Positions 5,901 to 38,733 of a DNA stretch of 64,000 nucleotides are shown here, piece after piece. The translations under genes were made by a program, and so were the position numbers. Source of the DNA: Nissabacter sp. SGAir0207 (GTDB taxonomy: Bacteria; Pseudomonadota; Gammaproteobacteria; Enterobacterales; Enterobacteriaceae); NCBI RefSeq assembly GCF_005491205.1, contig NZ_CP028037.1:186001-250000 (forward strand), read 5' to 3'. The first letter of the stretch is position 1. Each line of letters opens with the position of its first letter. The notes under the pieces were generated by a model that was not told where the DNA came from, made no database searches, and saw only the letters and a program-made list of their open reading frames with translations.

Positions 5901-7711
5901 GCCGCATCTTTCCACATGGCATCGGTGGTGATGGTGCCAAAGTTATCGGCGGTGCTGTTATCAATTGCACTCATCGCAACGCCGCGGCCATACACCTCCA
6001 GCGTGCCGTTGGCCATATTGGTTGCAGAGGCGCCATTGAACGCTGTCATTAACTGGATGCCCGCTACGGTATTATTCGACCAGCTCATGTTAACGGCACT
6101 GAAGGTTTGCAGGGTGTTAACCAAGCTGTCTTGGTTCATAATGCGGCTGGTTAAGCTACCCTCATTAACGGCAGTAGCCCCTCCATCGACATACAGACCA
6201 TAGGGTAAGACATACAGACCTGCCACCTCGCTGGTACGCTCTAATTCTATGCTGCCCTGATTACGTATCAGGGTATTTTTATTAGAACCTTGTGCGAGTG
6301 TTATATTTTGTACCTGGATTGCCCCCTGATTGATAAGGCTGCCCCCAGACGTCAGCTTGAACAGGCCAGTATTATCAGAAAAATAGGCGTTGGTTCTGTT
6401 GATACCGAAAGTATTCAGGGTAGCGCCTTCAGCGATCTCTAATTCCGCGCCGTTGGTGAGATTAAAGCCAACAAAGCCGACCGGGAAGTCACCGTCAATG
6501 GTGCTGTCCCCCTGTAGGGAGAGGGTAGAGGCACCGTCAATGGTGATAGCTATGGCTGGCTCATGGCCTGTTTGCGTGCGTTGTTCGGCAATCGCATTGC
6601 CGGCTACCGTATCCGTGATCTGATCCACTTCCCCGGTGAGCTGCAGGCCCTGCCGTAACTCCACGCGGTTGCCGTCGCCACTGATGGTCACGCCCGAAAT
6701 AGTCTCCTGTGAGCCATCTGCTTTGCCATATTTTTTGGGGGCCACTTCCGTATCCACCACCACCTGCAGGTGGCCGTCCAGTATCACCGTATTGTTGCTG
6801 CCAGTGACGGCAATCCCGGTAGTGGCATCATAAAATTTCTCGCCAGCCAGCGGGGAGGACTGATCTTTATCCACCCGCATGTCACCGGTCAGGATGATCT
6901 GGTTGGCCTCGCCCGCCACCTGCACGCCGGTGGCCTGCTGGCCGGTGACGGCGATATTATCAGCGCTCAGGTTGACGGTGTTGTTCTGCCCGCTGACGCT
7001 AATACCGGTGGAAAAGTCGCCCACTGCCATATCGCCGTGTTGGTTCAGGGTATTGCTGTCACCGGCGACGACAAAGCCGGTGCCGCCGTTGCTGAGGGTG
7101 GCATCACCGTCGTTATTCAGGATATTGCCGTTGCCTACCACCTGCACGCCAGTGGAGCCGCTGCCATCCACCACGATTGGGCCGAGGGTATTGAGGGTAT
7201 TGTCATTCCCGCTCAGGCTTAGGCCTGTGCCGCCAGCCTGCCCGCCGGTAGTGGCGTTGCTGTTGATGGTGTAGCCATCTACCGCCAGTTGCGTACCGAT
7301 ATCGCCTTCGCCAATGCCGATGCTGTCTTCATTAATATCAATGATCTTGCTGACATCATCGCCGTCGTCGTCACCATTATCGTCACCGCCGTCATCGCCA
7401 TTATCATCACCGCCGTCGTCGCTGCCATTATCTCCGCTGGAGACAGCGTGGCTGTTGTCGTCATCGGCCACGATAAAGCCCACCGCCAGCGCGGCGGCCA
7501 CCGCGCCACCGGCGATCCACGTCCACTCCTCCTGCGAGAGCGCGGTCGGGGTCAGGCAGGCCTTGGGCAGGGCGTCGCGCTGTGCTGGGGTAAGTTGGTT
7601 GATATTGGTCGGGCACTTCAGGAGCGTTTTATCTTCGGAAGTATTAGCGGCAAAACTATTATTACTGAGTGCGAGGGCAATACAGAGGGAGAGAAGTTTT
7701 TTACGTTGCAT
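2984..7711 (-). CDS. Large autotransporter (type Va) with Asp-rich linker and beta-helix passenger
   Basis: Surface protein of the type V secretion class. Residues 1-21 are a signal peptide (ends NNSFA). Two cysteines follow (about 33 and 52), then an unusual second hydrophobic stretch (WIAGGAVAAALAVGFIV, about 65-82) and a run of Asp/Gly/Asn repeats (DDGGDDNGDD type, about 96-118). From about 125 to 1290 the protein is a repetitive Asn/Gly/Thr-rich passenger with many NNGTI-like turns, as in pectin-lyase-like beta-helix adhesins. The last ~285 residues are the beta-barrel translocator, ending in Phe (YRYHF) as outer-membrane proteins do. No serine-protease GDSGS motif is visible, so an adhesin or aggregation role is more likely than a protease. 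Monocistronic with a long AT-rich upstream region. Confidence 0.9.
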   Translation of the reverse strand: MQRKKLLSLCIALALSNNSFAANTSEDKTLLKCPTNINQLTPAQRDALPKACLTPTALSQEEWTWIAGGAVAAALAVGFIVADDDNSHAVSSGDNGSDDGGDDNGDDGGDDNGDDDGDDVSKIIDINEDSIGIGEGDIGTQLAVDGYTINSNATTGGQAGGTGLSLSGNDNTLNTLGPIVVDGSGSTGVQVVGNGNILNNDGDATLSNGGTGFVVAGDSNTLNQHGDMAVGDFSTGISVSGQNNTVNLSADNIAVTGQQATGVQVAGEANQIILTGDMRVDKDQSSPLAGEKFYDATTGIAVTGSNNTVILDGHLQVVVDTEVAPKKYGKADGSQETISGVTISGDGNRVELRQGLQLTGEVDQITDTVAGNAIAEQRTQTGHEPAIAITIDGASTLSLQGDSTIDGDFPVGFVGFNLTNGAELEIAEGATLNTFGINRTNAYFSDNTGLFKLTSGGSLINQGAIQVQNITLAQGSNKNTLIRNQGSIELERTSEVAGLYVLPYGLYVDGGATAVNEGSLTSRIMNQDSLVNTLQTFSAVNMSWSNNTVAGIQLMTAFNGASATNMANGTLEVYGRGVAMSAIDNSTADNFGTITTDAMWKDAADTTQMSVNIPSDSPKDFAVGMYTGTDSGASNNNAVATNHQGGVITVYNAGAGMVAYGSSNQVINQGTINLESNENAQPGQPLVGIAVYKGGTAINDTTGVININAENGQAFYSDGNANNTIINRGQINVGDGVPDSADNSSTLAQDELPDGTVLSGTTTLTQNTLIYTGSTVSNTGTVEGSQLDIWGTLNNESGATIDAPLFIENQGTVNNSGLIEDTLIVKSGGTVNNSGVINGAQPSITDGTVINNAGGTIQNGVVAVNSTLTNHGNWNATNNKDFGVRNNSVLNNAVDGTLTIANQRYMTIESGSVFKNSGTMISTDTKKDHVVLRIGKNGDSNIINNGTLNQTGSSVLVGSIADHANPSTFWNQGNGLNGYSGTTGEVNYNGTNGTAVYMKHSNSVAINDGVMNISGSNTVAMKGSSNAQLVNNGTINLGTEGTSDTGMVAMQLDANATADAVLENNGTINIYAADSYAFSQLGDNGRIVNNGTVNLAGANSGLVKESDVQIAGVNGNTDDKSEVHYANYTLPTDPTAASTLNQYTIGTNADGTAGTLTASNVALGDVSIDTGFTQGSAATTQTFNDVFVGDNISGEQNITSTSVVWSAEGQKDDSGNVDVTMTKNAYADVVSDESVSSVANALDAAYTNNDLFTSLNLKSTAELNSALRQISGSQAKSVARDARVLGNRFEMLADTAPVMGNGLAFNVVAKGDQRSELGNDTRYDMMALRQQFALSNHQTLSLEYGIARLDGDGDVSTAGDNGVTGGYSQFFGVQHSLPLADSGLSWNNALRYDIHNLDSNRQVQYGDVNRVADSDNNQQYLEFRSEMAKSYTPQKGLTLTPFAGMKLRYTSEEGYNERGAGDFNLRMSGVEETAVDAVAGLKLTYAGENGWAATATLEGGPNLSYQQGERTASLQGAAGQRFRVEDGQKGGGVNGLAQVGVKYQSKKAALSADAYHWQEDGLRDTGLMVNYRYHF

Positions 7712-25659: not shown

Positions 25660-26912
25660 TTATCTCCGTTGTTGAACCGCATCCTCATCCCGGTATTTGA
25701 ATGAGACCATAAAGATCACGGCAATCACTGCCGCCGCAATCGCCGGTATCCACCAGAACGTGGCCCAGCTGTCGGCGGTATTCCTGCCCGCCACAAAGGT
25801 GTTGTAGAGCGCGCCGGAGATCTGCGAGCCGAGCAACATGCCGATGCCGTAGGTGAACATCACCACCATGCTCTGCGCCTGTCCCTTCACCTTCTCGCCA
25901 GCCACCCGGTCGGTGTAGATAAAGCCAACCACAAAGAAGAAGTCATAGCAGACGCCGTGCAGCAGGATGCCAGCGTAGATCATCAGCCGCCCCTCCTCGC
26001 CCATGCCAAGGGCAAACAGCACATAGCGCAGGAACCAAGCGAACATGCCGATCAGCAGCATGTACTTCACCCCAGCCGACGGAACAGCAGCGGGATCACC
26101 AGCATAAAGAAGATCTCGGACATCTGGCCGAAGGACATCACGGCGCTGACGTTCTCTACTCCGGCATCCGCCAGCCAGGAGGCGGTGTAGGCGTAGTAGG
26201 TGCCCAGCGGCACCGAGATCAGGGTGGCGCAGATGGCGAACACCAAAAAGTGGCGGATTTTCATCAGCGCGAAGGCGTCCGCGCAGAACAGGTCACGCGT
26301 CCTGAGCGGCAACCCTTTCGCCGGGGCCGGGGTGTGGGGCAGCGTCAGGCTATAGAGGGCGAGGATCACCGAACAGATGGCCGCCACGGTGAAGATGCCA
26401 ACGCTGGCGGCAATGCCGATCGCGGCAATGAACAGGCCAGCGGCTATCCAGCCGATGGTGCCGAACACCCGCACAATCGGGAAACTCCGCTCGCTGTTGG
26501 AGAGGCTGTGGAAGGCGATATTGTTGGTCAGCGCCAGCGTCGGCATATAGCAGAGCGTGTAGCCAAACAGCAGGGAGATGAGCAACACGCCATTCTCCGC
26601 GCGCATGGCATCCGGCACGAAGTAGAGGATCGCCGCGCCAGCCAGATGCATCACCGCCAGCACCTTTTGCGAGGCGAAGAAGCGATCCACCAGCATCCCC
26701 AGCACAAACGGCGAGAGGATTGAGGCGATCGGCCCGGCGGAGAAGGCATCGCCAATCAATAACGACATGTTGTGTTGCGTCATCACTAGACCGAGGGTGA
26801 CTGACCAGCTCCCCCAGATAAAGAACTGGAGAAACATCATCAAAGACAGACGGGGCACCAGCATTTTCAGCCCCGTTTCAACGCGTTGCGAACTCTCTGT
26901 TATGGACGGCAT
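25660..26912 (-). pseudogene. MFS nucleoside:H+ symporter-type carrier, one-base frameshift
   Basis: Two adjacent frames (26067-26912, 281 aa; 25660-26070, 136 aa) together make one twelve-helix carrier of the NupG/XapB-like family. The first ends ...IPLLFRRLG and the second resumes at KYMLLIGMFAWFLRY in the -1 frame. Adding one C to the CCCC run at 26070-26073 (plus strand) restores a continuous 417-codon gene reading LGVKYML. As sequenced, the protein loses its last four to five helices and would be inactive. First gene of the isomerase/LacI set; its stop is 1 bp from the isomerase start codon. May be a sequencing error. Confidence 0.85.
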
Positions 26913-28222: not shown

Positions 28223-30340
28223 TCACTCTGTCGGCACCACCCGCCCCGGCCAGTGGTGCAGCGGGAACAGCGCCAGCCGGATGTTGGAGAGGTAGAACAG
28301 CGGCATAAACAGCGCGCCATCCTGCCGGGCGAGCGCCTCCAGCCTCAATAGCAGTAAGTCCAGCTCGCGCAGCAGCGCCGGGTGTGGGGTAGCCTGCAAC
28401 GTCTTCATTTTTCCCTTAATGAACAGCGCCAGCTCATGGAACATCTGCGCGCTGTTGATCTGGTGGCGCTCCAGCACCTCGCGGTGGCGGGCGTAGAAGT
28501 CATAGCAGTTCGCCCCTAGCCAGGCCTCGGTGATCAGGTCGCCCCCGGCCAACAAGTCCGGCTCCGGGTCGATGCGTTTGCGCGGCAGGATGATGTTCAC
28601 CCGGTCGAGCGTCCGGGAGATGTAGTGCTGGCGCGCCAGCAGCGAGGAGGCGTTGCGCTCAATCTCCTTGATGAAGCGCAGCAGGTCACGCAGCCCCTTG
28701 CGCAGCGCGCGCTTGGCCGTCCAGGCGGGGCGCTTGTTGCGGATAATCGCGGTGACCACCACCGCGAACAGAATGCCGACCATTGCCGACAGCGCGGTAT
28801 TGAGCACGCCCGGCAGGTTGGGCCGGAAGTGGTGGCTCAGCCCGATAAAACCGGGGATCTGGGTGGCGACGCTCAGGCCAATCAGGTTGGTGGAGGGGCG
28901 GGCGATCACCAGCCCCAACGCCAGCAGCCCCGGCGTCAGGATCATCAGCAGCGCCTCAAAGGTGGTCGCCTGTGGGATCAGTAGGGCAATGTAGAGCACG
29001 CTGATCACCAGCGCCATCAGCACGCCCTTGATAAACAGCTTCATCGGCGTGAGCGGGGCATCTGTGCCCGCGAAGAAGGAGGCCAGAATTGCCGCCATCA
29101 TCGGCGCGGTCGCGCCATCCGCCCAGCCGCTGCCGACCCAGAACAGGCAGGAGCCAAAGGTCGCCAAAAAGGCGGTGGAGGCCGACAGCAGCAGCAGCCC
29201 CTTATCAATGTGCCGCTGCGGGCGGGCCTTTCTCGCCAGACTGGTGTCGCCGGAGAGGTCGCTCACCAGCGCGCTGACGCTCTGGTAGGCACCGGCGATG
29301 CGCACAAAGTCCGCCAGCCGCTCCAGCAGACCAATCAGCAGGATGCTCTCTTCGGTGCGTAACTCCCCGGCCTGCCACGCCGCTTTCAATTGCGACTGGC
29401 TGGTGGTGAGCACCTCTTGGATGCCACCGTCGCCGCTGGCCTGCTCGCCCTCATTCAGCCACAGCAAAAATGCCCGCAACGTCTGCGCCACCTGCTCCGG
29501 GAAGCGTACCTGTTGCTCTGCCAGCAGGGTGAGCCGCGCGTCAATGGCCGTCAGGGTCGGGATCAGGTAGGAGAGGTGCTGGTACTGCACGCTGACCAGC
29601 CGGATCAGCTTGCGCGCCGCGTCCCCCTCATAGACACAGTGGGTGATCAGCGTCTCAATCTGGAGCGGGAAGTTGGCCATCTGGATCAGGATCTCCTCAC
29701 GCTCCAGCGACTTATCCTTCGGCCGCACCGTGATCAGCTCGCTGCACAATTTGCGCCCATTTTCGTACCAGGTGCTGACGCTCTGCTCCAGCAAACTGCG
29801 CATCGATACCGGCAATACCAGTTGGTGCACCAGCGTGCTGCACACTATCGCCAGCGTGATCTCCTCAATGCGCGAGATCACCGTCTCCGTGATGCCATCG
29901 GGGGAGGTGACATTGGGGAAGCCCATGATCGCCGCGCTGTAACCCGCCAGCATGAACACATAGCTTTTCGGCGTACGGTCGTGCAGCGACAGGTAGAGGC
30001 AGACCGCCACCCACAGCGAGACACACAGGCTGAACAGCACCGGCGACTCTACCGTGGCCGGATAGATCAAAAAGATAAACAGGCCACCGAGCCAGGTACC
30101 CAGCAGGCGGAATACCGATTTGGAGAGGGTCGAGGCCGAATAGAGCTGCGACACCACATAGACCGTGGTCAGCGACCAGGCGGGTTTTTCAAAGTTAAGT
30201 TCTAAAGAGACAGAGAGGGCAAGAAAGGCGGCCAGACAGGTTTTAACGGAAAACAGAATGGCGTTGTTGGTAAACCACTTCATTGAAAGTTCGTACTCAT
30301 GCACGCTGCGTGGCGCGTATCCTGCCAGAAGGCGAAACAT
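28223..30340 (-). CDS. FUSC-family inner-membrane protein (aromatic acid efflux-like)
   Basis: Up to 705 residues. Two membrane blocks (about 25-180 and 385-535 of the long form), each with several helices, separated and followed by large cytoplasmic helical regions: the architecture of AaeB/YccS-type FUSC proteins, which work with periplasmic adaptors in efflux of aromatic carboxylates. The start is uncertain: the ATG at 30283 (MKWFTNNAILFSVKTCLAAF) matches the usual beginning of the family and would give 686 residues. No AaeA-like membrane fusion partner is adjacent, which is unusual for an AaeB-type pump. Confidence 0.85.
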   Translation of the reverse strand: MFRLLAGYAPRSVHEYELSMKWFTNNAILFSVKTCLAAFLALSVSLELNFEKPAWSLTTVYVVSQLYSASTLSKSVFRLLGTWLGGLFIFLIYPATVESPVLFSLCVSLWVAVCLYLSLHDRTPKSYVFMLAGYSAAIMGFPNVTSPDGITETVISRIEEITLAIVCSTLVHQLVLPVSMRSLLEQSVSTWYENGRKLCSELITVRPKDKSLEREEILIQMANFPLQIETLITHCVYEGDAARKLIRLVSVQYQHLSYLIPTLTAIDARLTLLAEQQVRFPEQVAQTLRAFLLWLNEGEQASGDGGIQEVLTTSQSQLKAAWQAGELRTEESILLIGLLERLADFVRIAGAYQSVSALVSDLSGDTSLARKARPQRHIDKGLLLLSASTAFLATFGSCLFWVGSGWADGATAPMMAAILASFFAGTDAPLTPMKLFIKGVLMALVISVLYIALLIPQATTFEALLMILTPGLLALGLVIARPSTNLIGLSVATQIPGFIGLSHHFRPNLPGVLNTALSAMVGILFAVVVTAIIRNKRPAWTAKRALRKGLRDLLRFIKEIERNASSLLARQHYISRTLDRVNIILPRKRIDPEPDLLAGGDLITEAWLGANCYDFYARHREVLERHQINSAQMFHELALFIKGKMKTLQATPHPALLRELDLLLLRLEALARQDGALFMPLFYLSNIRLALFPLHHWPGRVVPTE

Positions 30341-30639
30341 TCCGCGCTGGGATTAATGATACAAATTATGAATGAATTATTTCATTGATTTTAATGATAA
30401 TTATCTCGATAGCGCCTTTCATTCGCTGGTTATATAGGCGAGAACAATTCATTAGTGATGCTCGGGCTATTCAATCAGGGGCCGTCAGGGTTTCAAATGA
30501 AATAAATTGCCCCAGCAGAAAAATATTCCCCCGCCAACTGCCTGCACCGAATTGAGGCTTTCTTGTATCGCGGGTGACCCATCCTGAGGCACGCTGTGAG
30601 CATGAAAATTTAACCCGTTGTTATTAATGATTATTTTTT
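30341..30639. other. Intergenic region upstream of the guanidine operon
   Basis: No gene. The left part is AT-rich and would hold the promoter of the FUSC gene. A TGCACC-N4-TGAGGC element at 30543-30558, about 95 bp before the sigma-54 promoter, is an imperfect NtrC-like half-dyad in the right place for an enhancer; this is a weak call. Confidence 0.3.
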
Positions 30640-30656
30640 CTGGCACGCTTCTTGCC
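30640..30656 (+). promoter_or_regulatory. Sigma-54 (RpoN) promoter
   Basis: CTGGCACGCTTCTTGCC matches the -24/-12 consensus TGGCAC-N5-TTGC exactly, with GG (30642-30643) and GC (30654-30655) separated by 10 bp. Transcription would start near 30667, just before the riboswitch. It implies activation by an enhancer-binding protein, most likely NtrC under nitrogen limitation. Confidence 0.82.
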
Positions 30657-30697
30657 TCGTTTAGCACAAAGAGCAGCACGACGATCACTGTAAATAG

Positions 30698-30793
30698 CAG
30701 GCTAGGGTTCCGGTCCACAAACGTGGATGGCTGGTCCGAGAGCTGGCGACCTCATCTGGGGTTACACGGCGGGAGAAAAGCCCGGGAGACAGC
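30698..30793 (+). promoter_or_regulatory. Guanidine-I riboswitch (ykkC class) aptamer
   Basis: The conserved blocks of the ykkC/guanidine-I RNA occur in order: GCTAGGGTTCCGG (from 30701), CTGGTCCGAGAGCTGGCGA (from 30731), ACACGGCGGGA (from 30764) and AAAAGCCCGGGAGAC (to 30790). The class binds free guanidinium and switches genes on. It lies in the leader between the sigma-54 promoter and the binding-protein gene of a transporter-carboxylase operon, a classic location for this class. Confidence 0.93.
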
Positions 30794-30825
30794 ACACCAT
30801 TGGTGTCGCGCTGCTCCCATATTTT
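30784..30825 (+). terminator. Riboswitch-controlled terminator hairpin (expression platform)
   Basis: GGGAG (30784-30788) can pair with CTCCC (30814-30818), AGC with GCT, and an inner ACACC/GGTGT stem with loop ATT, followed by the T-rich ATATTTT. The GGGAG strand is part of the conserved aptamer, so ligand-bound aptamer and terminator are mutually exclusive: guanidine would prevent termination. Confidence 0.7.
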
Positions 30826-30846
30826 CGCCAAAACCCGAGGTTTCCC

Positions 30847-31904
30847 ATGAAATGCTTCCGTCTGCTGAGTGTTCCCCTGCTTGCGCTGGCCCTGCTGGCC
30901 ACATCCCCCTCCCATGCCGCCGCCAAAAAAGAGTTCAACCTCTGCTGGACTATCTACGCCGGCTGGATGCCGTGGGGCAACCTGGCTGCCTCCGGCATCA
31001 TGGACAAGTGGGCGGCCAAATATGGCATTCAGGTACACATTACCCAGCTCAATGATTATATCGAATCGGTAAACCAGTACACCGCCGGCCAGTTTGACGG
31101 CTGCACCATGACCAATATGGATGCCCTGACCATCCCGGCGGCGGGCGGCGTTGACAGCACCGCGCTGATCTTAGGGAGCTACTCCGAGGGCAATGATGGC
31201 GTGGTGGTCAAGGGGCAGGGCAAGACGCTGGCTGACCTGAAGGGAATGCGCATCTACCTGCCGGAACTCTCCGTCTCCCACTATCTGCTGGTGCGCGGAC
31301 TGGAGAAAGCCGGGTTGCAGGAGCGCGACGTGACCGTCGTCAACACCTCCGACGCCGATATTGTCTCCGCCTTCGCCACCCGGATGTGAAAGCGGCGGTC
31401 GCCTGGAATCCCCAGCTCTCTGCCATCAAGGCGACGCCGGAGGCCACCGAGGTATTTGACTCCTCCCAAGTGCCGGGCGAGCTGATTGACATGATGGTGG
31501 TCAACACCGAGGTGCTGAAAGATAACCCGGCGCTGGGCAAGGCGCTGACCGGTGCCTGGTTTGAGATGATGTCGCTGATGCAGGCTGGCAATACCGAGGC
31601 GCTGAGTGCGATGGCCGCCGCCTCAGGCACCGATCTCGCCGGGTATCAGGCGCAGCTGAAAACCACCCACCTGTTTTATACCCCCGCCGACAACCTCCGC
31701 TTCGTTACTGGCCCGGCGCTGGCCGACACCATGCAGCGGGTGGCGCAGTTCTCCTTTGACAAGGGGCTGCTGGGCGAGGGGGCCGACAGCGCGGAGTTTA
31801 TCGGGTTGCAGTTCCCCGGCAACGTCACGCGCGGCGACGCGGGCAATGTGAAGCTGCGCTTCGATGACAGCTACCTGAAGATGGCGGCCGACGGCACGCT
31901 GTAA
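30847..31904 (+). pseudogene. ABC transporter substrate-binding protein of the urea/guanidine carboxylase locus, one-base frameshift
   Basis: N-terminal part with signal peptide (MKCFRLLSVPLLALALLATSPSHA) and NMT1/SsuA-type fold (FNLCWTIYAGWMPWGNL) runs to a premature TGA at 31387. The C-terminal part (KAAVAWNPQLSAIKATPEA... to 31904) continues in the next frame. Adding one C to the CCC run at 31379-31381 restores ATPDVKAAVAWNP and a 352-residue protein. The sequence corresponds to the binding protein family found beside urea carboxylase genes. As given it is truncated by half and non-functional; a sequencing error is possible. Preceded by GAGG and the guanidine-I riboswitch. Confidence 0.85.
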
Positions 31905-31927: not shown

Positions 31928-32742
31928 ATGCGGCAAATCAATCGCCACCCCAGCCGGGGCCTGCACCTGATGTTGGTGCTGCTGCCCTTTATCCTGCTCA
32001 TCGCTGCTTACTTCATGGGGTCGGCGGTGCGGATGGAGGCCAACCCCATGACAAGCTGCTGCCGGGGCTGTCGCAGATGGCGGCGGCGCTGGAGCGCATG
32101 GCCTTCACCCCGGACAAACGCAGCGGCGACTACCTGTTCTGGCTGGACACCGCCACCAGCCTTGGCAGGTTACTGCTGGGGCTGGGTATCGCCTCGCTGC
32201 TGGGGCTGCTGTTTGGTGTCGCCTCCGGGGTGTTCCCCCTGTGGCGCGCGCCGCTGTCCACCTTTATGACCGTGCTCTCAATGGTGCCGCCCCTCGCCAT
32301 CCTGCCCATCCTGTTCATTGTGTTCGGGCTGGATGAGCTATCGAAAATCATGCTGATTGTGATTGGGGTAACGCCGATGCTGGCGCGTGACCTGGAGCAA
32401 CGCGCCAGAGAGATCCCAGCGGAGATTGTCATCAAGGCGCAGACGCTGGGGGCCAATAGCTGGATCGTGGTGCTGCGGGTGGTGCTACCGCAACTGCTCT
32501 CGCGGCTCATCACCTCGCTGCGCTTGCTGCTCGGCTCTGCCTGGCTGTTCCTGATCTCCGCCGAGGCCATCTCCTCCACGGCCGGGCTGGGTTACCGCAT
32601 CTTCCTCGTGCGCCGCTATATGGCGATGGACGTCATCCTGCCCTATGTCCTGTGGATCACGCTGCTGGCATGGCTGATGGATCTGGCGCTGCGCTACCTG
32701 CACCGTCGCTGTTTCCCTTGGGCGGAGGCCACCCAATCATGA
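31928..32742 (+). pseudogene. ABC transporter permease of the guanidine operon, one-base frameshift
   Basis: The start (MRQINRHPSRGLHLMLVLLPFILLIAAYFM) shifts frame at the CCCC run at 32044-32047 and would end at 32269 with a nonsense tail; the true continuation (MAAALERMAFTPDKRSGDYLFW... to 32742) is in another frame. One extra C gives EANPHDKLLPGLSQMAAALER and a 271-residue BPD_transp_1 permease of the SsuC/TauC type, with the EAA-like loop near AQTLGANSWIVVLRVVLPQ. The main membrane domain could still be made if translation restarted internally at 32077, but it would lack the first helix. Overlaps the ATPase start as ATGA. Confidence 0.83.
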
Positions 32743-33545
32743 GTTTCATCGAGATCAACAATATCTGGCAGCAGTATGGCGACCACGTGGTGCTGGAGAA
32801 CCTCAACCTGCGGGTCAATGAGGGCGAATTCTGCACCATGGTGGGCGCGTCCGGCTGCGGCAAGTCCACCTTCCTGCGCCTGCTGTTGGGGCAGGAGCGG
32901 CCAAGCCGCGGCGCGATTACGCTCGAGGGGGTGCCGCTGCCCGCCGAGCCGGACGCCAGCCGTGGCGTGGTGTTCCAGCGCTACTCGGTCTTTCCCCACC
33001 TCACGGTGCTGGACAACGTCACTGCCAGCCTCGAGTTCTCCCGCGCGCCGCTGACGGGCCGGCTGTTTGGCAAGCACAAGCGCGCGGCGCGGGAGCGGGC
33101 GCAGGCGATGCTGGCGCGGGTCGGGCTGGGCCACGCGCTGGCGAAATACCCGGCACAACTCTCCGGCGGCATGCAGCAACGGCTCGCCATCGCGCAGGCG
33201 CTGATGATGCAGCCGCGCATCCTGCTGCTGGATGAGCCTTTTGGCGCGCTGGACCCCGGCATCCGCAAGGATATGCACCAGCTATTGCTGGAGCTGTGGC
33301 ATGAGACCCGGCTGACGGTCTTTATGGTGACCCACGATCTGGCCGAGGGTTTCCACCTCGGCACCCGGCTGCTGGTGTTCGACAAGGTGCGCATTGATCC
33401 CCATGCGCCCGAGGCTTATGGCGCGCGCATCACCTATGACCTGCCGCTGAACGAAGATCGGCAGCAACAGCGCGGCGTCCTTGCCGCTCCCGGCGTGCAG
33501 CCGGGCGCTCCCTTACCATCCCCTTTACAGGAGTTACTATCATGA
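32739..33545 (+). CDS. ABC transporter ATP-binding protein of the guanidine operon
   Basis: 268 residues from the ATG overlapping the permease stop (ATGA). Complete nucleotide-binding domain: Walker A GASGCGKST (36-44), signature LSGGMQQ (141-147), Walker B ILLLDEP (161-167) and switch His in MVTHDL. Belongs to the nitrate/sulfonate/taurine group that energises SsuC/TauC-like permeases. A C-terminal extension of about 40 residues beyond the usual domain is rich in Pro and Gln. Cotranscribed with the binding protein and permease and with the DUF1989 pair starting at 33542. Confidence 0.92.
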   Translation: MSFIEINNIWQQYGDHVVLENLNLRVNEGEFCTMVGASGCGKSTFLRLLLGQERPSRGAITLEGVPLPAEPDASRGVVFQRYSVFPHLTVLDNVTASLEFSRAPLTGRLFGKHKRAARERAQAMLARVGLGHALAKYPAQLSGGMQQRLAIAQALMMQPRILLLDEPFGALDPGIRKDMHQLLLELWHETRLTVFMVTHDLAEGFHLGTRLLVFDKVRIDPHAPEAYGARITYDLPLNEDRQQQRGVLAAPGVQPGAPLPSPLQELLS

Positions 33546-34267
33546 CGCTCTTCGCGCAAACCCGGACAACCCTCCATCAGGAGACACTGCCCGGCGGCGG
33601 CCACACCTCCTTTATCCTGAAACGCGGGCAGGTGCTGCGCCTGACCGACATTGAGGGCGGCGCCAATGTCAGCCTGATGCTGCTCAACGCCCATGAGAAG
33701 AGTGAGCGGCTGAACCTGCCGGATACGCTGAAGGGGCAGCATACGGCGAAACTGACCGTTGGCCACTGCCTCTACTCGGACATGGGCCGGGTGCTGGCGG
33801 CGATTGTCGCTGACAGTTGCGGCTGGCATGACAGCTTTGGCGGCGTGCTGAATGCCGCGGAAACCGCAGAAAAGTATGGCCAGGGCCGGTATCAGGAGCT
33901 GCGCAACGGCTTCCACCGTAACGGCACGGACAATTTGCTGGTGGAGATGGGCAAGTGGAACCTTGGCATTGAGGATCTGCAAATGGTGCTTAACCTGTTC
34001 AGCAAGGTCACGGTGGACGGGCAGGGCACGTTCCAGTTCCACGCCAACCACTCCCAGCCGGGCGACGCGGTTGAACTGTACGCGCCGATGGATGTGCTGG
34101 TGGTGCTGACCGCCCTGCCGCACCCGATGGATCCCGCCCGCCACTACGCACCGCGCCCGGTGCACCTCGCCTGGCATCTGGCGGAGGAGGGACAGGCCGC
34201 GCTGTGCGAAACCTCGCGCCCGGAGAATGCCCGCGCCTTCCAAAACACCCGCCGGTTCACCCTGTAA
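33542..34267 (+). CDS. Urea (guanidine) carboxylase-associated protein, first of the DUF1989 pair
   Basis: 241 residues, DUF1989 family, of the type called urea amidolyase-associated protein 1. In recent work on bacterial guanidine use, this pair was identified as the two subunits of carboxyguanidine deiminase, converting carboxyguanidine to allophanate and ammonia (established for homologues; inferred here). Motifs include LRLTDIEGGANVSLMLLNAHEKSERLN and DSCGWHDSFGG, whose Cys/His may bind a metal. Preceded by CAGGAG; it overlaps the ATPase stop by 4 bp and lies 12 bp before its partner. Confidence 0.88.
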   Translation: MTLFAQTRTTLHQETLPGGGHTSFILKRGQVLRLTDIEGGANVSLMLLNAHEKSERLNLPDTLKGQHTAKLTVGHCLYSDMGRVLAAIVADSCGWHDSFGGVLNAAETAEKYGQGRYQELRNGFHRNGTDNLLVEMGKWNLGIEDLQMVLNLFSKVTVDGQGTFQFHANHSQPGDAVELYAPMDVLVVLTALPHPMDPARHYAPRPVHLAWHLAEEGQAALCETSRPENARAFQNTRRFTL

Positions 34268-34279
34268 GGAGAAGAGATC

Positions 34280-34915
34280 ATGACCGTGACTACCCATGCC
34301 AGACACGCTGACGATGCCGTTTTCCGCCACACCATCCCGGCGGGCGAACCCTACCTGTTTGAGGTGAAACGCGGCCAGACCGTGCGGCTGCATGATGTGG
34401 AGGGCAATCAGGCAGTGGACACGCTGTTCTACAGCGCCGCCAACCCGCGTGAACGCTATGACGCGCAACGCACGCTGCGCCGCCAGAATAACGCCTACCT
34501 CACCACCGGCAGCGTGCTGTGGTCTAACCTCGGTAACCCGCTACTGACCATCACGGCCGACACCTGCGGGCGCCACGACACCCTGGGCGGCGCCTGCTCG
34601 CAGGAGAGCAACACCGTACGCTATGCGTTGGACACGCGCTCAATGCATAGCTGCCGCGATAACTTCCTCTGCGCCTGCCTGCATGATGGCCGCATGAACA
34701 AGGGCGACCTGACGGCCAACATCAACTTCTTTATGAATGTGCCGGTGACGCCCGATGGCCAACTGACCTTTGAGGATGGCATCTCCGCCGCTGGCAAATA
34801 TGTGGAGCTGCGCGCCGAGCAGGATGTGATCGTGCTGATCTCCAACTGCCCGCAGCTTAACAACCCCTGCAATGGCTGGAACCCAACCGCCGCCGAGGTG
34901 TTGGTATGGAACTGA
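34280..34915 (+). CDS. Urea (guanidine) carboxylase-associated protein, second of the DUF1989 pair
   Basis: 211 residues, DUF1989 family, paralogous to the preceding protein (compare VRLHDVEGNQAVDTLFYSA and DTCGRHDTLGG with the first subunit). Expected second subunit of carboxyguanidine deiminase. The central region HSCRDNFLCACLHDG has closely spaced Cys/His residues suggesting metal binding, and NCPQLNNPCNGWNPT is a conserved C-terminal block. AAGGAG ribosome binding site 8 bp upstream of the ATG. Its last codons overlap a 43-codon frame that may also be translated. Confidence 0.88.
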   Translation: MTVTTHARHADDAVFRHTIPAGEPYLFEVKRGQTVRLHDVEGNQAVDTLFYSAANPRERYDAQRTLRRQNNAYLTTGSVLWSNLGNPLLTITADTCGRHDTLGGACSQESNTVRYALDTRSMHSCRDNFLCACLHDGRMNKGDLTANINFFMNVPVTPDGQLTFEDGISAAGKYVELRAEQDVIVLISNCPQLNNPCNGWNPTAAEVLVWN

Positions 34916-35037: not shown

Positions 35038-35127
35038 AGTAGCCCGACGCCAACGGATCTCCCTCATGGACGGCCATGAGCGGCCTTGAATCTGGCGGGA
35101 CGACCCGCCCCCCTGTGAGCCTGACAC

Positions 35128-38100
35128 ATGTTTGAAAAACTTCTGGTTGCCAACCGTGGCGCGATTGCGTGCCGCATTTTCCGTACGCTGCGCGAGATGG
35201 ACGTCAAAAGCGTGGCGGTATTTTCAGACGCCGATGCCGGTAGCCTGCATCTGCGCGAGGCAGATGAGGCCCTGAGCCTCGGCGATGGCCCGGCGGCGCA
35301 CACCTATCTGGTGGCCGAGAAGATTATCCACGCGGCGCAACAGAGCGGGGCCAGCGCCATCCATCCCGGCTATGGTTTTCTGTCAGAGAACGCGGCCTTC
35401 GCGCAAGCCTGCGAGGCGGCAGGGCTGGCGTTTGTCGGCCCGACGCCAGCGCAACTGCGCATGTTTGGCCTGAAACATACTGCCCGCGCGCTGGCGCAGG
35501 AGAACCGGGTGCCGCTGCTGCCGGGCACCGGCCTGCTGGAGAGTCTGGCCGAGGCGCAGGGTGCGGCGGCCGAGGTGGGCTATCCGGTGATGCTAAAAAG
35601 CACCGCTGGCGGCGGCGGCATCGGGATGCGCATCTGTTACCACGCGGCGGATGTGGCCGAGGCGTTCGATGCCGTCAAGCGGCTGGGGCAGAACAACTTC
35701 AGCGATGCGGGCGTCTTCATCGAAAAATATATCGAACGGGCGCGCCACCTTGAGGTGCAGGTGTTTGGCGACGGGCAGGGCGAGGTGATTGCGCTGGGGG
35801 TGCGCGACTGCTCCATCCAGCGCCGTAACCAGAAGGTGCTGGAGGAGACGCCAGCCCCCAACCTGCCGCACGGCATGGCGGAAGCGCTCTGCTCCGCTGC
35901 CGTGACGCTTGCCAAGGCCGTCTGCTACCGCAGCGCTGGCACCGTGGAGTTTGTCTACGATAGTCAGGCGGAGCAGTTCTATTTCCTCGAGGTCAATACC
36001 CGGTTGCAGGTCGAGCATGGCGTTACCGAGCAGGTATGGGGGGTGGATCTGGTGCGCTGGATGATCGCTCTGGCGGCTGGTGAACTGCCGCCGCTGCGCG
36101 AGCTTGCCGCGACCCTGTCGCCCCACGGCCACGCCATTCAGGCGCGGCTCTATGCCGAAGATCCGGGCCGCCAGTTCCAGCCCTCGCCGGGCCTGCTGAC
36201 CGATGTGGCGTTCCCGCCCGCCGATGGCCGCACGCTGCGCATCGATAGCTGGGTGGAGGCAGGCTGTGAGATCCCGCCATTTTTTGATCCCTTGCTGGCG
36301 AAAGTGATTACCCACCGCGAGACGCGCGGGCAGGCCATCGCGGCGCTCGAGCAGGCGCTGGCGGCCACCCGGCTGTATGGCGTGGAGACCAACCGCGGCT
36401 ATTTGCGGCAGATTCTGGCCTATGCGCCCTTTGCCACCGGCTACCCGTGGACGCGCTGCTTGGATGGACTGACCTATCAGGCCACCACCTTGGAGGTGCT
36501 CTCTGCGGGCACCCAGACCACCGTGCAGGATTTCCCCGGCAGGCTGGGGTACTGGGCCGTGGGCGTGCCGCCCTCCGGCCCGATGGACAGCCTGGCGCTG
36601 CGCCTCGCCAACCGCCTGCTGGGCAACAGCGACAGTGACGCCGCGCTGGAGATCACCATGAACGGCCCTACGCTGCGCTTCAATACTGCGGCGGTAGCGG
36701 CGGTTACCGGGGTCACGCTGCCGGTGGAGCTGGATGGCGTGGCGCAGCCGATGAACCAGAGTTTCTTCATCGCCGCTGGCCAGACGCTGCGGCTGGGGGA
36801 CATCAGCGGGGCGGGCGCGCGCAGTTACCTCGCCCTGCGCGGCGGGTTCCTTGTCCCAGAGTACCTCGGCAGCAAGAGCACCTTCACTTTGGGGCAGTTC
36901 GGCGGCCATGCTGGCCGCGCGTTGCGCACCGGCGACGTGCTCCATCTGGCGGAACTGCAAACGCACCATGCCGGCGAACGCCTGCCAGAGGCGCTGTGCC
37001 CGGCCCTGCCAGCCGTCCGGCAGGTGCGGGTGATCTACGGGCCACATGGCGCGCCGGAGTACTTCACCCCCGCCTACATGGAGACCTTCTTCCAGACCGA
37101 CTGGGAGGTGCATTTTAACTCCAGCCGCACGGGCGTGCGCCTGATCGGGCCACGGCCAGAGTGGGTGAGGGAGAGCGGCGGCGAGGCCGGGCTGCACCCC
37201 TCCAACATCCATGACAACCCCTATGCCATCGGCGCGGTGGACTTTACCGGCGACATGCCCGTGATCCTCGGGCCAGACGGCCCGAGCCTCGGCGGCTTTG
37301 TCTGCCCGGTGACGGTGATTGAGGCCGATCTCTGCCAGCTCGGCCAGTTAAAGGCCGGTGACCGCCTGCGCTTTGTGCCGGTGGATATTCCGACGGCGCG
37401 GCAACTGGTCGCGGAGCAGGATCAGACGCTGGCAACCCTGCGCCCAGTCACCTCCACCTGGCGGCCTGCCGCCATCACCTCGCCGGTGGTGCTGGAGATG
37501 GGCAGGGCCGACGAGCGGCTGGTAGCACGCGTGGCGGGTGATACCCACCTGTTGCTGGAGATAGGTGACCCGGAGCTGGATCTGGTGCTGCGTTTCCGGG
37601 CACATGCGCTGATGCAAGTGCTGGCCGCCAGCCAGCATTCGGCCATCCTCGACCTGACGCCCGGCATCCGCTCCTTGCAGATTCACTACCGGCCCGACGC
37701 ACTGCCGTTGGCGACCCTGCTCTCGATGGTTTCCACCTGCTGGGAAGAGGTGTGCGCCCAACGGGATCTGCGCGTGCCTTCGCGGATTGTGCACCTGCCG
37801 CTCTCTTGGGATGATCCCGCCTGCCAGCAAGCGATTGATAAGTATATGGCCACAGTGCGCCGCGATGCCCCGTGGTGCCCAAGCAACCTGGAGTTCATTC
37901 GCCGCATCAATGACCTGCCAGCAGTGGACGATGTTTACCGTACCCTGTTTGAGGCCAGCTATCTGGTGATGGGGCTGGGCGACGTTTACCTTGGCGCGCC
38001 TGTGGCGACACCGCTCGACCCGCGCCACCGGTTGGTCACCACCAAATACAACCCGGCGCGAACCTGGACGGCGGAGAACTCCGTGGGCATTGGCGGTGCC

Positions 38101-38733
38101 TACCTCTGCATCTATGGCATGGAGGGGCCGGGCGGTTACCAGTTTGTCGGGCGTACCTTGCAGATGTGGAACCGCTATCGCGAAGTCGCTGACTTTGGCG
38201 GCACCCCCTGGCTGCTGCGGTTCTTCGACCAGATCCGCTTCTACCCGGTCTCTGCGGAGGAGCTGCAAAACATCCGCCGCGACTTCCCGCTCGGGCGTTA
38301 TCCACTGCGCATTGAACAGACCGAGCTGGCGCTGGCGGATTACCAACGCTTCCTGACGCAGGAGGCGGAGAGCATCGCTGCCTTCCGCACCCACCAGCAG
38401 GCCGCCTTCGGTGCCGAGCGCGATCGCTGGATAGCCTCGGGGCAGGCACATTTTGAGAGCCAGGAGGCAGCCGTTGAGCAGTCCGATGAGGTACCGCTCC
38501 AACCCGGCCAACAGCGTGTGGAGAGCGCCATCGCTGGCAACCTCTGGCAGGTTAATGTCGCGGAGGGAGATTCAGTCGCGGCGGGCGACGTGCTGGCGAT
38601 CATCGAGGCAATGAAGATGGAGATTCCGCTTCTGGCCCCTTGCGACGGCATCGTGGAGGCCATCCAAGTGGCATCTGGTGCCACAGTGCGCGCCGGGCAG
38701 GGTGTGTTTGTGCTGACGCGGGACGTGGGGTAA
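35128..38733 (+). CDS. Biotin-dependent guanidine carboxylase (urea carboxylase family)
   Basis: 1201 residues, full length. Order: biotin carboxylase domain (1-450; FEKLLVANRGAIACRI, ATP-grasp GGGGIGMR near 166), carboxyltransferase region of AHS2/AHS1 type (about 460-1070), and C-terminal biotinyl domain with EAMKMEIP, biotin on Lys1163. In the carboxyltransferase motif VDFTGDMPVIL residue 705 is Asp; as I recall, true urea carboxylases have Asn here and guanidine carboxylases Asp. With the guanidine-I riboswitch and DUF1989 pair this points to carboxylation of guanidine rather than urea. No allophanate hydrolase gene follows, so the final step must be encoded elsewhere. Confidence 0.9.
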   Translation: MFEKLLVANRGAIACRIFRTLREMDVKSVAVFSDADAGSLHLREADEALSLGDGPAAHTYLVAEKIIHAAQQSGASAIHPGYGFLSENAAFAQACEAAGLAFVGPTPAQLRMFGLKHTARALAQENRVPLLPGTGLLESLAEAQGAAAEVGYPVMLKSTAGGGGIGMRICYHAADVAEAFDAVKRLGQNNFSDAGVFIEKYIERARHLEVQVFGDGQGEVIALGVRDCSIQRRNQKVLEETPAPNLPHGMAEALCSAAVTLAKAVCYRSAGTVEFVYDSQAEQFYFLEVNTRLQVEHGVTEQVWGVDLVRWMIALAAGELPPLRELAATLSPHGHAIQARLYAEDPGRQFQPSPGLLTDVAFPPADGRTLRIDSWVEAGCEIPPFFDPLLAKVITHRETRGQAIAALEQALAATRLYGVETNRGYLRQILAYAPFATGYPWTRCLDGLTYQATTLEVLSAGTQTTVQDFPGRLGYWAVGVPPSGPMDSLALRLANRLLGNSDSDAALEITMNGPTLRFNTAAVAAVTGVTLPVELDGVAQPMNQSFFIAAGQTLRLGDISGAGARSYLALRGGFLVPEYLGSKSTFTLGQFGGHAGRALRTGDVLHLAELQTHHAGERLPEALCPALPAVRQVRVIYGPHGAPEYFTPAYMETFFQTDWEVHFNSSRTGVRLIGPRPEWVRESGGEAGLHPSNIHDNPYAIGAVDFTGDMPVILGPDGPSLGGFVCPVTVIEADLCQLGQLKAGDRLRFVPVDIPTARQLVAEQDQTLATLRPVTSTWRPAAITSPVVLEMGRADERLVARVAGDTHLLLEIGDPELDLVLRFRAHALMQVLAASQHSAILDLTPGIRSLQIHYRPDALPLATLLSMVSTCWEEVCAQRDLRVPSRIVHLPLSWDDPACQQAIDKYMATVRRDAPWCPSNLEFIRRINDLPAVDDVYRTLFEASYLVMGLGDVYLGAPVATPLDPRHRLVTTKYNPARTWTAENSVGIGGAYLCIYGMEGPGGYQFVGRTLQMWNRYREVADFGGTPWLLRFFDQIRFYPVSAEELQNIRRDFPLGRYPLRIEQTELALADYQRFLTQEAESIAAFRTHQQAAFGAERDRWIASGQAHFESQEAAVEQSDEVPLQPGQQRVESAIAGNLWQVNVAEGDSVAAGDVLAIIEAMKMEIPLLAPCDGIVEAIQVASGATVRAGQGVFVLTRDVG

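Follow-up and report, generated by a model that had tools for sequence, protein, structure and literature searches.

The window analysed here, 64,000 nt of the Nissabacter sp. SGAir0207 genome (contig NZ_CP028037.1, positions 186,001 to 250,000), carries on its + strand, starting at position 30847, genes whose sequences identify them as a guanidine-assimilation operon that encodes an importer, deiminase subunits, and a carboxylase. We conclude, with a probability of roughly 0.8, that this operon would be controlled by inputs arranged in series, a nitrogen-limitation promoter and then one or more guanidine riboswitches. Its leader contains the following elements (positions are those of the window).

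30543..30559, + strand: NtrC-like palindrome, TGCACCGAATTGAGGCT, matching 9 of 12 letters, its first base 98 nt ahead of the sigma-54 box
30641..30656, + strand: sigma-54 (−24/−12) promoter, TGGCACGCTTCTTGCC, 11 of 12 consensus letters, GG and GC correctly spaced
30691..30790, + strand: guanidine-I riboswitch aptamer, Rfam RF00442, 88 bits (cut-off 63) over the full model, 1-107, E 2.1e-14
30784..30827, + strand: terminator-like hairpin, stem 30784-30818, T-rich tail 30819-30827, sharing GGGAG with the aptamer

The gene 5' of the operon (28223-30340, − strand) is divergent and the intergenic region measures 506 bases; therefore, read-through into the operon is not expected, and the promoter should lie within this region. 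Sigma-54 sites were scored against the form TGGCACG-N4-TTGCW, and transcription from such promoters starts about 12 nt downstream of the GC. Taking the C of TTGC as −12, the transcript is predicted to begin at about 30667. In the available text of PMC8743547, the consensus is written as TGGCACnnTTnTTGC. With GG and GC fixed, a score of 11/12 was reached at only one other place in the window, on the − strand. A promoter scan of 30341-30900 detected no sigma-70-like promoter on the + strand, and a sigma-70 origin of the leader was ruled out on this ground. The aptamer was the sole guanidine-I element found in the genome search, and it precedes genes for guanidine transport and metabolism, the usual context of RF00442. 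Within the hairpin, GGGAG (30784-30788) pairs with CTCCC (30814-30818) and is closed by a second stem, with an energy of −19 kcal/mol. The stem takes up the last 7 nt of the aptamer, so that aptamer and hairpin are mutually exclusive, and the predicted ligand-free minimum-free-energy fold includes the hairpin. A preliminary description of this DNA had proposed a consensus −24/−12 promoter ahead of a complete guanidine-I aptamer and a terminator that uses the aptamer's GGGAG strand and the CTCCC at 30814; the promoter and the hairpin were recovered as listed, and the covariance search placed the aptamer well above the Rfam cut-off. Its spacing of about 45 bp between box and aptamer holds if counted from the GG but not as a gap, which is 34 nt.

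To place this arrangement among relatives, we collected 64 guanidine-I elements, the window's included, from 63 of 392 genomes of the family, themselves a sample of a larger group; the family, class, and phylum genome searches, as well as the guanidine-II search described below, were run with stricter filters. The 250 nt upstream of each aptamer were searched for the box at thresholds of 9/12 and 10/12, with dinucleotide shuffles and downstream 250-nt windows from the same loci as controls. A box scoring at least 9/12 was present upstream of 62/64 elements, compared to 256/3200 shuffles and 186/2463 downstream windows, and at the threshold of 10/12 the counts were 60/64, 62/3200, and 20/2463, respectively. 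The gap from box to aptamer was 31-56 nt across the 62 elements, all of which head the same six-gene import-and-carboxylase operon. Element counts are not independent events; box-bearing elements are known from 26 of the 27 genera of the sample, a count that meets relatedness only in part. The two elements lacking a box (the element of genome G113 and the second element of G114) fall below the Rfam cut-off and adjoin no such operon; they were excluded from the NtrC and terminator counts, leaving n = 62 with the window included.

NtrC boxes of the form TGCACC-N5-GGTGCA are expected about 100-150 bp upstream of an NtrC-activated promoter. A published NtrC box is given as TGCACCAnnnTGGTGCA in the part of PMC8743547 available to us. 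We scored the palindrome TGCACY-N5-RGTGCA in the 300 nt that precede the box, with a threshold of 10/12. Palindromes scoring at least 10/12 occurred in 54/62 family elements, compared to a mean of 3.25 and a maximum of 7 in dinucleotide shuffles. Their commonest cluster of start positions is −94 to −101 relative to the box, and the window's site at 30543 falls there; a second, weaker match in the window scores 8/12 at 30575. Taken alone, the window's 9/12 site would be weak evidence for NtrC binding. The genome carries both ntrC (809 bits) and rpoN (530 bits).

The hairpin is likewise a feature of the family. An aptamer-overlapping hairpin (−12 kcal/mol or lower, with 5 or more T among the next 9 bases) was found in 53/62 leaders, compared to 65/496 when the tails were shuffled. 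Across 26 distinct leaders, pairing held in 94.5% of the pair cells, versus 34-59% in slid versions of the pairing. The tail in the window is ATATTTTCG (5 T in 9) and that of a same-genus relative is TTTTTTTGT; many relatives have richer T tracts, with 6-7 T in several, the same-genus one included, and others have none.

A second switch, overlooked in the preliminary description, lies inside the operon, directly before the carboxylase start at 35128.

35062..35108, + strand: guanidine-II (mini-ykkC) riboswitch, Rfam RF01068, 37.3 bits against a cut-off of 32

Using the coordinates from the guanidine-II genome search, we found such an element about 4.1-4.4 kb downstream of guanidine-I in 57/62 operon genomes, 13 of the 57 scoring slightly under the Rfam cut-off. 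In the predicted ligand-free fold, the 5' strand of the first hairpin pairs with GUGAG just before the carboxylase start, which fits the translational control proposed in the available text of PMC12508155.

Guanidine-II elements outside the operon served as an exporter control that shares both ligand and genomes with the operon. The search gave 95 guanidine-II places, 38 of them outside the operon, and 20 of the 37 in relatives were taken. At 18/20 of these loci a simple open reading frame (ORF) call gave a protein of 105-113 residues directly after the switch, and at the other two it was truncated or in another frame. These proteins resemble, and presumably are, the exporter Gdx/SugE (gene gdx/sugE). 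No sigma-54 box of at least 9/12 was found within 250 nt at any of the 20 loci (best score 7), nor at the one further guanidine-II element of the window's own genome (best score 5). The split of 62/62 assimilation operons versus 0/20 exporter loci gives a Fisher p of 1.6e-19, with relatedness ignored.

The arrangement extends beyond the family. The wider sample, drawn from 29 of 369 genomes at class level and 43 of 398 at phylum level with partial overlap, added 87 guanidine-I elements. The best box within 250 nt scored at least 9/12 and lay no more than 90 nt from the aptamer in 70/87 of them; with the search confined to 90 nt, the count was 71/87, compared to 93/2610 shuffles. The gaps of the 70 form two groups, 30-90 nt (57 elements) and 4-15 nt (13 elements), and in the latter, the transcript would start roughly where the aptamer does. 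Box ends about 11 nt before the aptamer were seen at loci L282 (3158-3293), L149, L151, L170, and L174. The NtrC-like palindrome reached at least 10/12 in 33/69 wider elements (shuffles, 3.55), one element with less than 150 nt upstream having been dropped from the 70, and in 3 of the 17 box-less ones (shuffles, 0.5). Judged from translations, five of these 17 exceptions precede a guanidinase-like gene (one element), a permease-like gene (one), or exporter-like genes (three), and the elements of the last three score below the Rfam cut-off. We also observed guanidinase-like genes (arginase family, read from translation) behind a sigma-54 box and guanidine-I in four genomes (L113, L118, L126, and L181), and, at L129, the same pair with an uncommon neighbour, a gene for a putative membrane protein resembling a fatty-acid desaturase or hydroxylase.

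The best 80 of 173 named loci retrieved with UAAP1 (from Raoultella, Erwinia, Pectobacterium, Pseudomonas, Stutzerimonas, and others) gave a similar picture. A motif search found 89 aptamers in 78/80 loci, with a box within 90 nt for 87/89, and Rfam agreed with the motif-found aptamers at all three UAAP1 loci checked. The UAAP1-UAAP2-carboxylase cluster of Burkholderia stagnalis has two divergent, back-to-back guanidine-I switches (L281, 5436-5558 on the − strand and 6002-6137 on the + strand), with a sigma-54 box 38 nt ahead of one (11/12) and 33 nt ahead of the other (10/12). Rhizobium leguminosarum has an 11/12 box that ends 11 nt ahead of the aptamer. No NtrC-like site of at least 10/12 was found in the scanned stretches of B. 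stagnalis and R. leguminosarum.

The genes behind the leader are as follows.

30847..31904, + strand: ABC transporter substrate-binding protein gene; TIGR03427 (ABC_peri_uca) is matched on either side of a frame break near 31386
31928..32742, + strand: ABC transporter permease gene; TauC/SsuC-type match for 32077-32739, N-terminal part in another frame
32739..33545, + strand: ABC transporter ATP-binding protein; a later start was chosen within the scanned ORF, 32652-33545
33542..34267, + strand: UAAP1, TIGR03425, 320 bits against a cut-off of 206; carboxyguanidine deiminase subunit by published role
34280..34915, + strand: UAAP2, TIGR03424, 326 bits against a cut-off of 285; carboxyguanidine deiminase subunit by published role
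35128..38733, + strand: urea/guanidine carboxylase, TIGR02712, 1839 bits against a cut-off of 1304; preference for guanidine predicted

We take COG3665 to be the UAAP family. The set of a guanidine carboxylase operon is thus complete (importer with two frame-broken genes, UAAP1/2, and carboxylase), with the allophanate hydrolase of the last step unlinked: it is encoded apart from the operon at G000:C1:80058-81734 on the − strand (L263, 816 bits). A 10/12 sigma-54-like box lies just 5' of its likely start, and a 9/12 NtrC-like site lies upstream. Searching with this protein (tblastn), we found a relative in the downstream stretch of 14/62 operons. The permease frame break is near 32036, and the protein of a relative aligns only from residue 46.

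Taken together, these elements suggest the following sequence of events. Under nitrogen limitation, phosphorylated NtrC bound at about 30543 would activate sigma-54 RNA polymerase at 30641-30656, giving a transcript from about 30667, whose nascent leader would fold into the guanidine-I aptamer. With guanidine bound, GGGAG would be kept in the aptamer and transcription would continue; without guanidine, it would pair with CTCCC at 30814-30818 to form the terminator. The guanidine-II switch probably controls translation of the carboxylase. As a net output, the operon genes would be expressed chiefly under nitrogen shortage in the presence of guanidine. The preliminary description had called this an AND gate of RpoN/NtrC and guanidine; the conservation of box, NtrC palindrome, and hairpin supports such a gate, but that description offered nothing in support of NtrC, for which the site in the window reaches only 9/12. 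It had also presented the combination of RpoN control with guanidine-I as something this particular sequence adds. The combination is indeed present but not special to it, being found at nearly every guanidine-I element of the family sample.

Several observations weigh against this reading. Shuffled upstream regions reach the 9/12 of the window's NtrC-like site in about a third of cases (mean 20.85/62). A generic terminator scan of 30341-30900 gave no terminator, and the T tail in the window is weak; although the hairpin design is conserved across relatives, termination efficiency in the window is therefore uncertain. Nor did the 26 leaders show a compensatory double change at any hairpin pair, so that the support for the hairpin is conserved complementarity and not covariation; proof of the terminator by covariation was sought by pair counting on these leaders and was not obtained. 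Among the wider elements, 12 of assimilation type lack a box within 90 nt by the best-site measure, although two of these carry an 11/12 box farther off, at 146 and 193 nt. The exporter control differs from the operon in switch class (guanidine-II versus guanidine-I) besides the gene. The published NtrC data come from another genus, and their authors, in the available text of PMC5491218, read the genes as serving urea utilisation. Lastly, the substrate-binding-protein and permease genes are frame-broken, which, if the breaks are not assembly errors, may leave this strain without a working operon.

These points bear on different alternatives. That the −24/−12 match is fortuitous and transcription of the operon depends on a sigma-70 promoter is highly improbable: a consensus match alone never proves function, but a box stands just ahead of the aptamer in 62/64 family elements and at none of the 20 exporter loci, a chance match was ruled out by the shuffles and downstream windows, and the + strand of the intergenic region offers no sigma-70-like site. 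A different enhancer-binding protein at the sigma-54 promoter, bringing a second input other than nitrogen status, would be compatible with the window's weak 9/12 site, and, besides ntrC, four places in the genome cover at least positions 141-362 of TIGR01818, which was taken as the sigma-54 activator domain. We regard this as quite unlikely, given the strong enrichment of NtrC-like palindromes in relatives and the role of the operon genes in nitrogen assimilation; moreover, the annotated neighbours (AdhP, an AaeB-like protein, and a YghX-like hydrolase) include no activator, and NtrC dependence is published for similar Burkholderia genes in the available text of PMC5491218.

The weak T tail and the negative generic scan, together with the hairpins of some relatives that have no good T tract, would also be expected if the switch worked through Rho or through translation of the first gene instead of intrinsic termination at 30784-30827. 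This is possible but rather doubtful: the hairpin ends 18 nt ahead of a Shine-Dalgarno-like GAGG (30837-30840), which it leaves uncovered, and several relatives, the same-genus one included, have tracts of 6-7 T. The frame breaks raise the further prospect that the operon is decaying in this strain and that the conserved control region is a remnant. The substrate-binding-protein gene is split between two frames here, whereas in each of the 61 other operons examined its halves share a frame, and the permease gene is likewise interrupted. On the other side, the operon's four later genes are unbroken and the genome encodes allophanate hydrolase at another place. An unrelated nucleoside permease gene (25660-26912) is split in the same manner, making three frame-broken genes within about 7 kb, which suggests either assembly indels or local decay. 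Since the unrelated gene is affected too, decay is no more likely than assembly error, and a decaying operon is on balance an unlikely explanation. The same-genus genome G103, compared with the whole region, matches only at the operon and one other place, so that this comparison does not separate assembly error from decay beyond the operon.

A broader rule seems reasonably probable for the Pseudomonadota: assimilation operons would have a guanidine riboswitch behind a sigma-54/NtrC promoter, and export genes would have theirs behind an ordinary promoter. One ligand with two uses, as food and as poison, would then be told apart by promoter type; the assimilation RNA would be made, and guanidine sensed there, mostly under nitrogen shortage, while detoxification would always be available. 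Many "urea carboxylase" genes of NtrC and sigma-54 regulons would in fact be guanidine genes, and guanidine genes named for urea in nitrogen regulons would support guanidine as a natural nitrogen source. The arrangement would also provide a testable case, recurring through much of the phylum, of a metabolite riboswitch that works only once a starvation-specific promoter fires; ammonium-rich assay medium may hide such riboswitches.

The pairing of guanidine-I with guanidine-II in guanidine carboxylase operons has been described, in the sections available to us, by a review (PMC12186494, section 6) and a study of Vreelandella boliviensis (PMC12508155). The enterobacterial and V. boliviensis operons described there have the same kinds of genes, with guanidine-I in front and guanidine-II before the carboxylase; the window's genome differs from them in its unlinked allophanate hydrolase. 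The Vreelandella authors presume transcriptional action for guanidine-I and translational action for guanidine-II, and report abundant operon proteins on guanidine but hardly any on ammonium (PMC12508155, available text). This pattern fits series control, although it leaves the two inputs unseparated. The words sigma, NtrC, and RpoN are absent from the main text of PMC12186494, and in PMC12508155, NtrC is absent and the lone "sigma" is a supplier's name. Conversely, as far as the available text of PMC5491218 tells, in an ntrC mutant of Burkholderia cenocepacia H111 at low ammonium, expression is lowered for a "urea carboxylase", the related ABC transporter protein, and an aminomethyltransferase, and sigma-54 also regulates 95% of the 150 top-ranked NtrC-dependent genes. 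These genes are similar to the window's and may be their orthologues, and a relative, B. stagnalis, was inspected; the word riboswitch does not occur in that paper. A survey of sigma-54 regulons predicts, in the part available, sigma-54 control of COG3665 genes (PMC12316311); guanidine is unmentioned in it, and riboswitch appears only within a reference title. In Magnetospirillum gryphiswaldense, the available text of PMC9549626 gives a mapped start at 119,678 on the − strand; the guanidine-I aptamer has its edge at 119,680 and the start falls 2 nt within it, which is consistent with where a hypothetical box about 8-11 nt upstream of the aptamer would place it. Among the matches listed in a search of the open-access literature, we found no report that joins sigma-54 with a guanidine riboswitch. 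The single components of this control are all known, and the apparently new part is the conserved stack of a sigma-54/NtrC promoter on guanidine-I, absent at the exporter loci examined.
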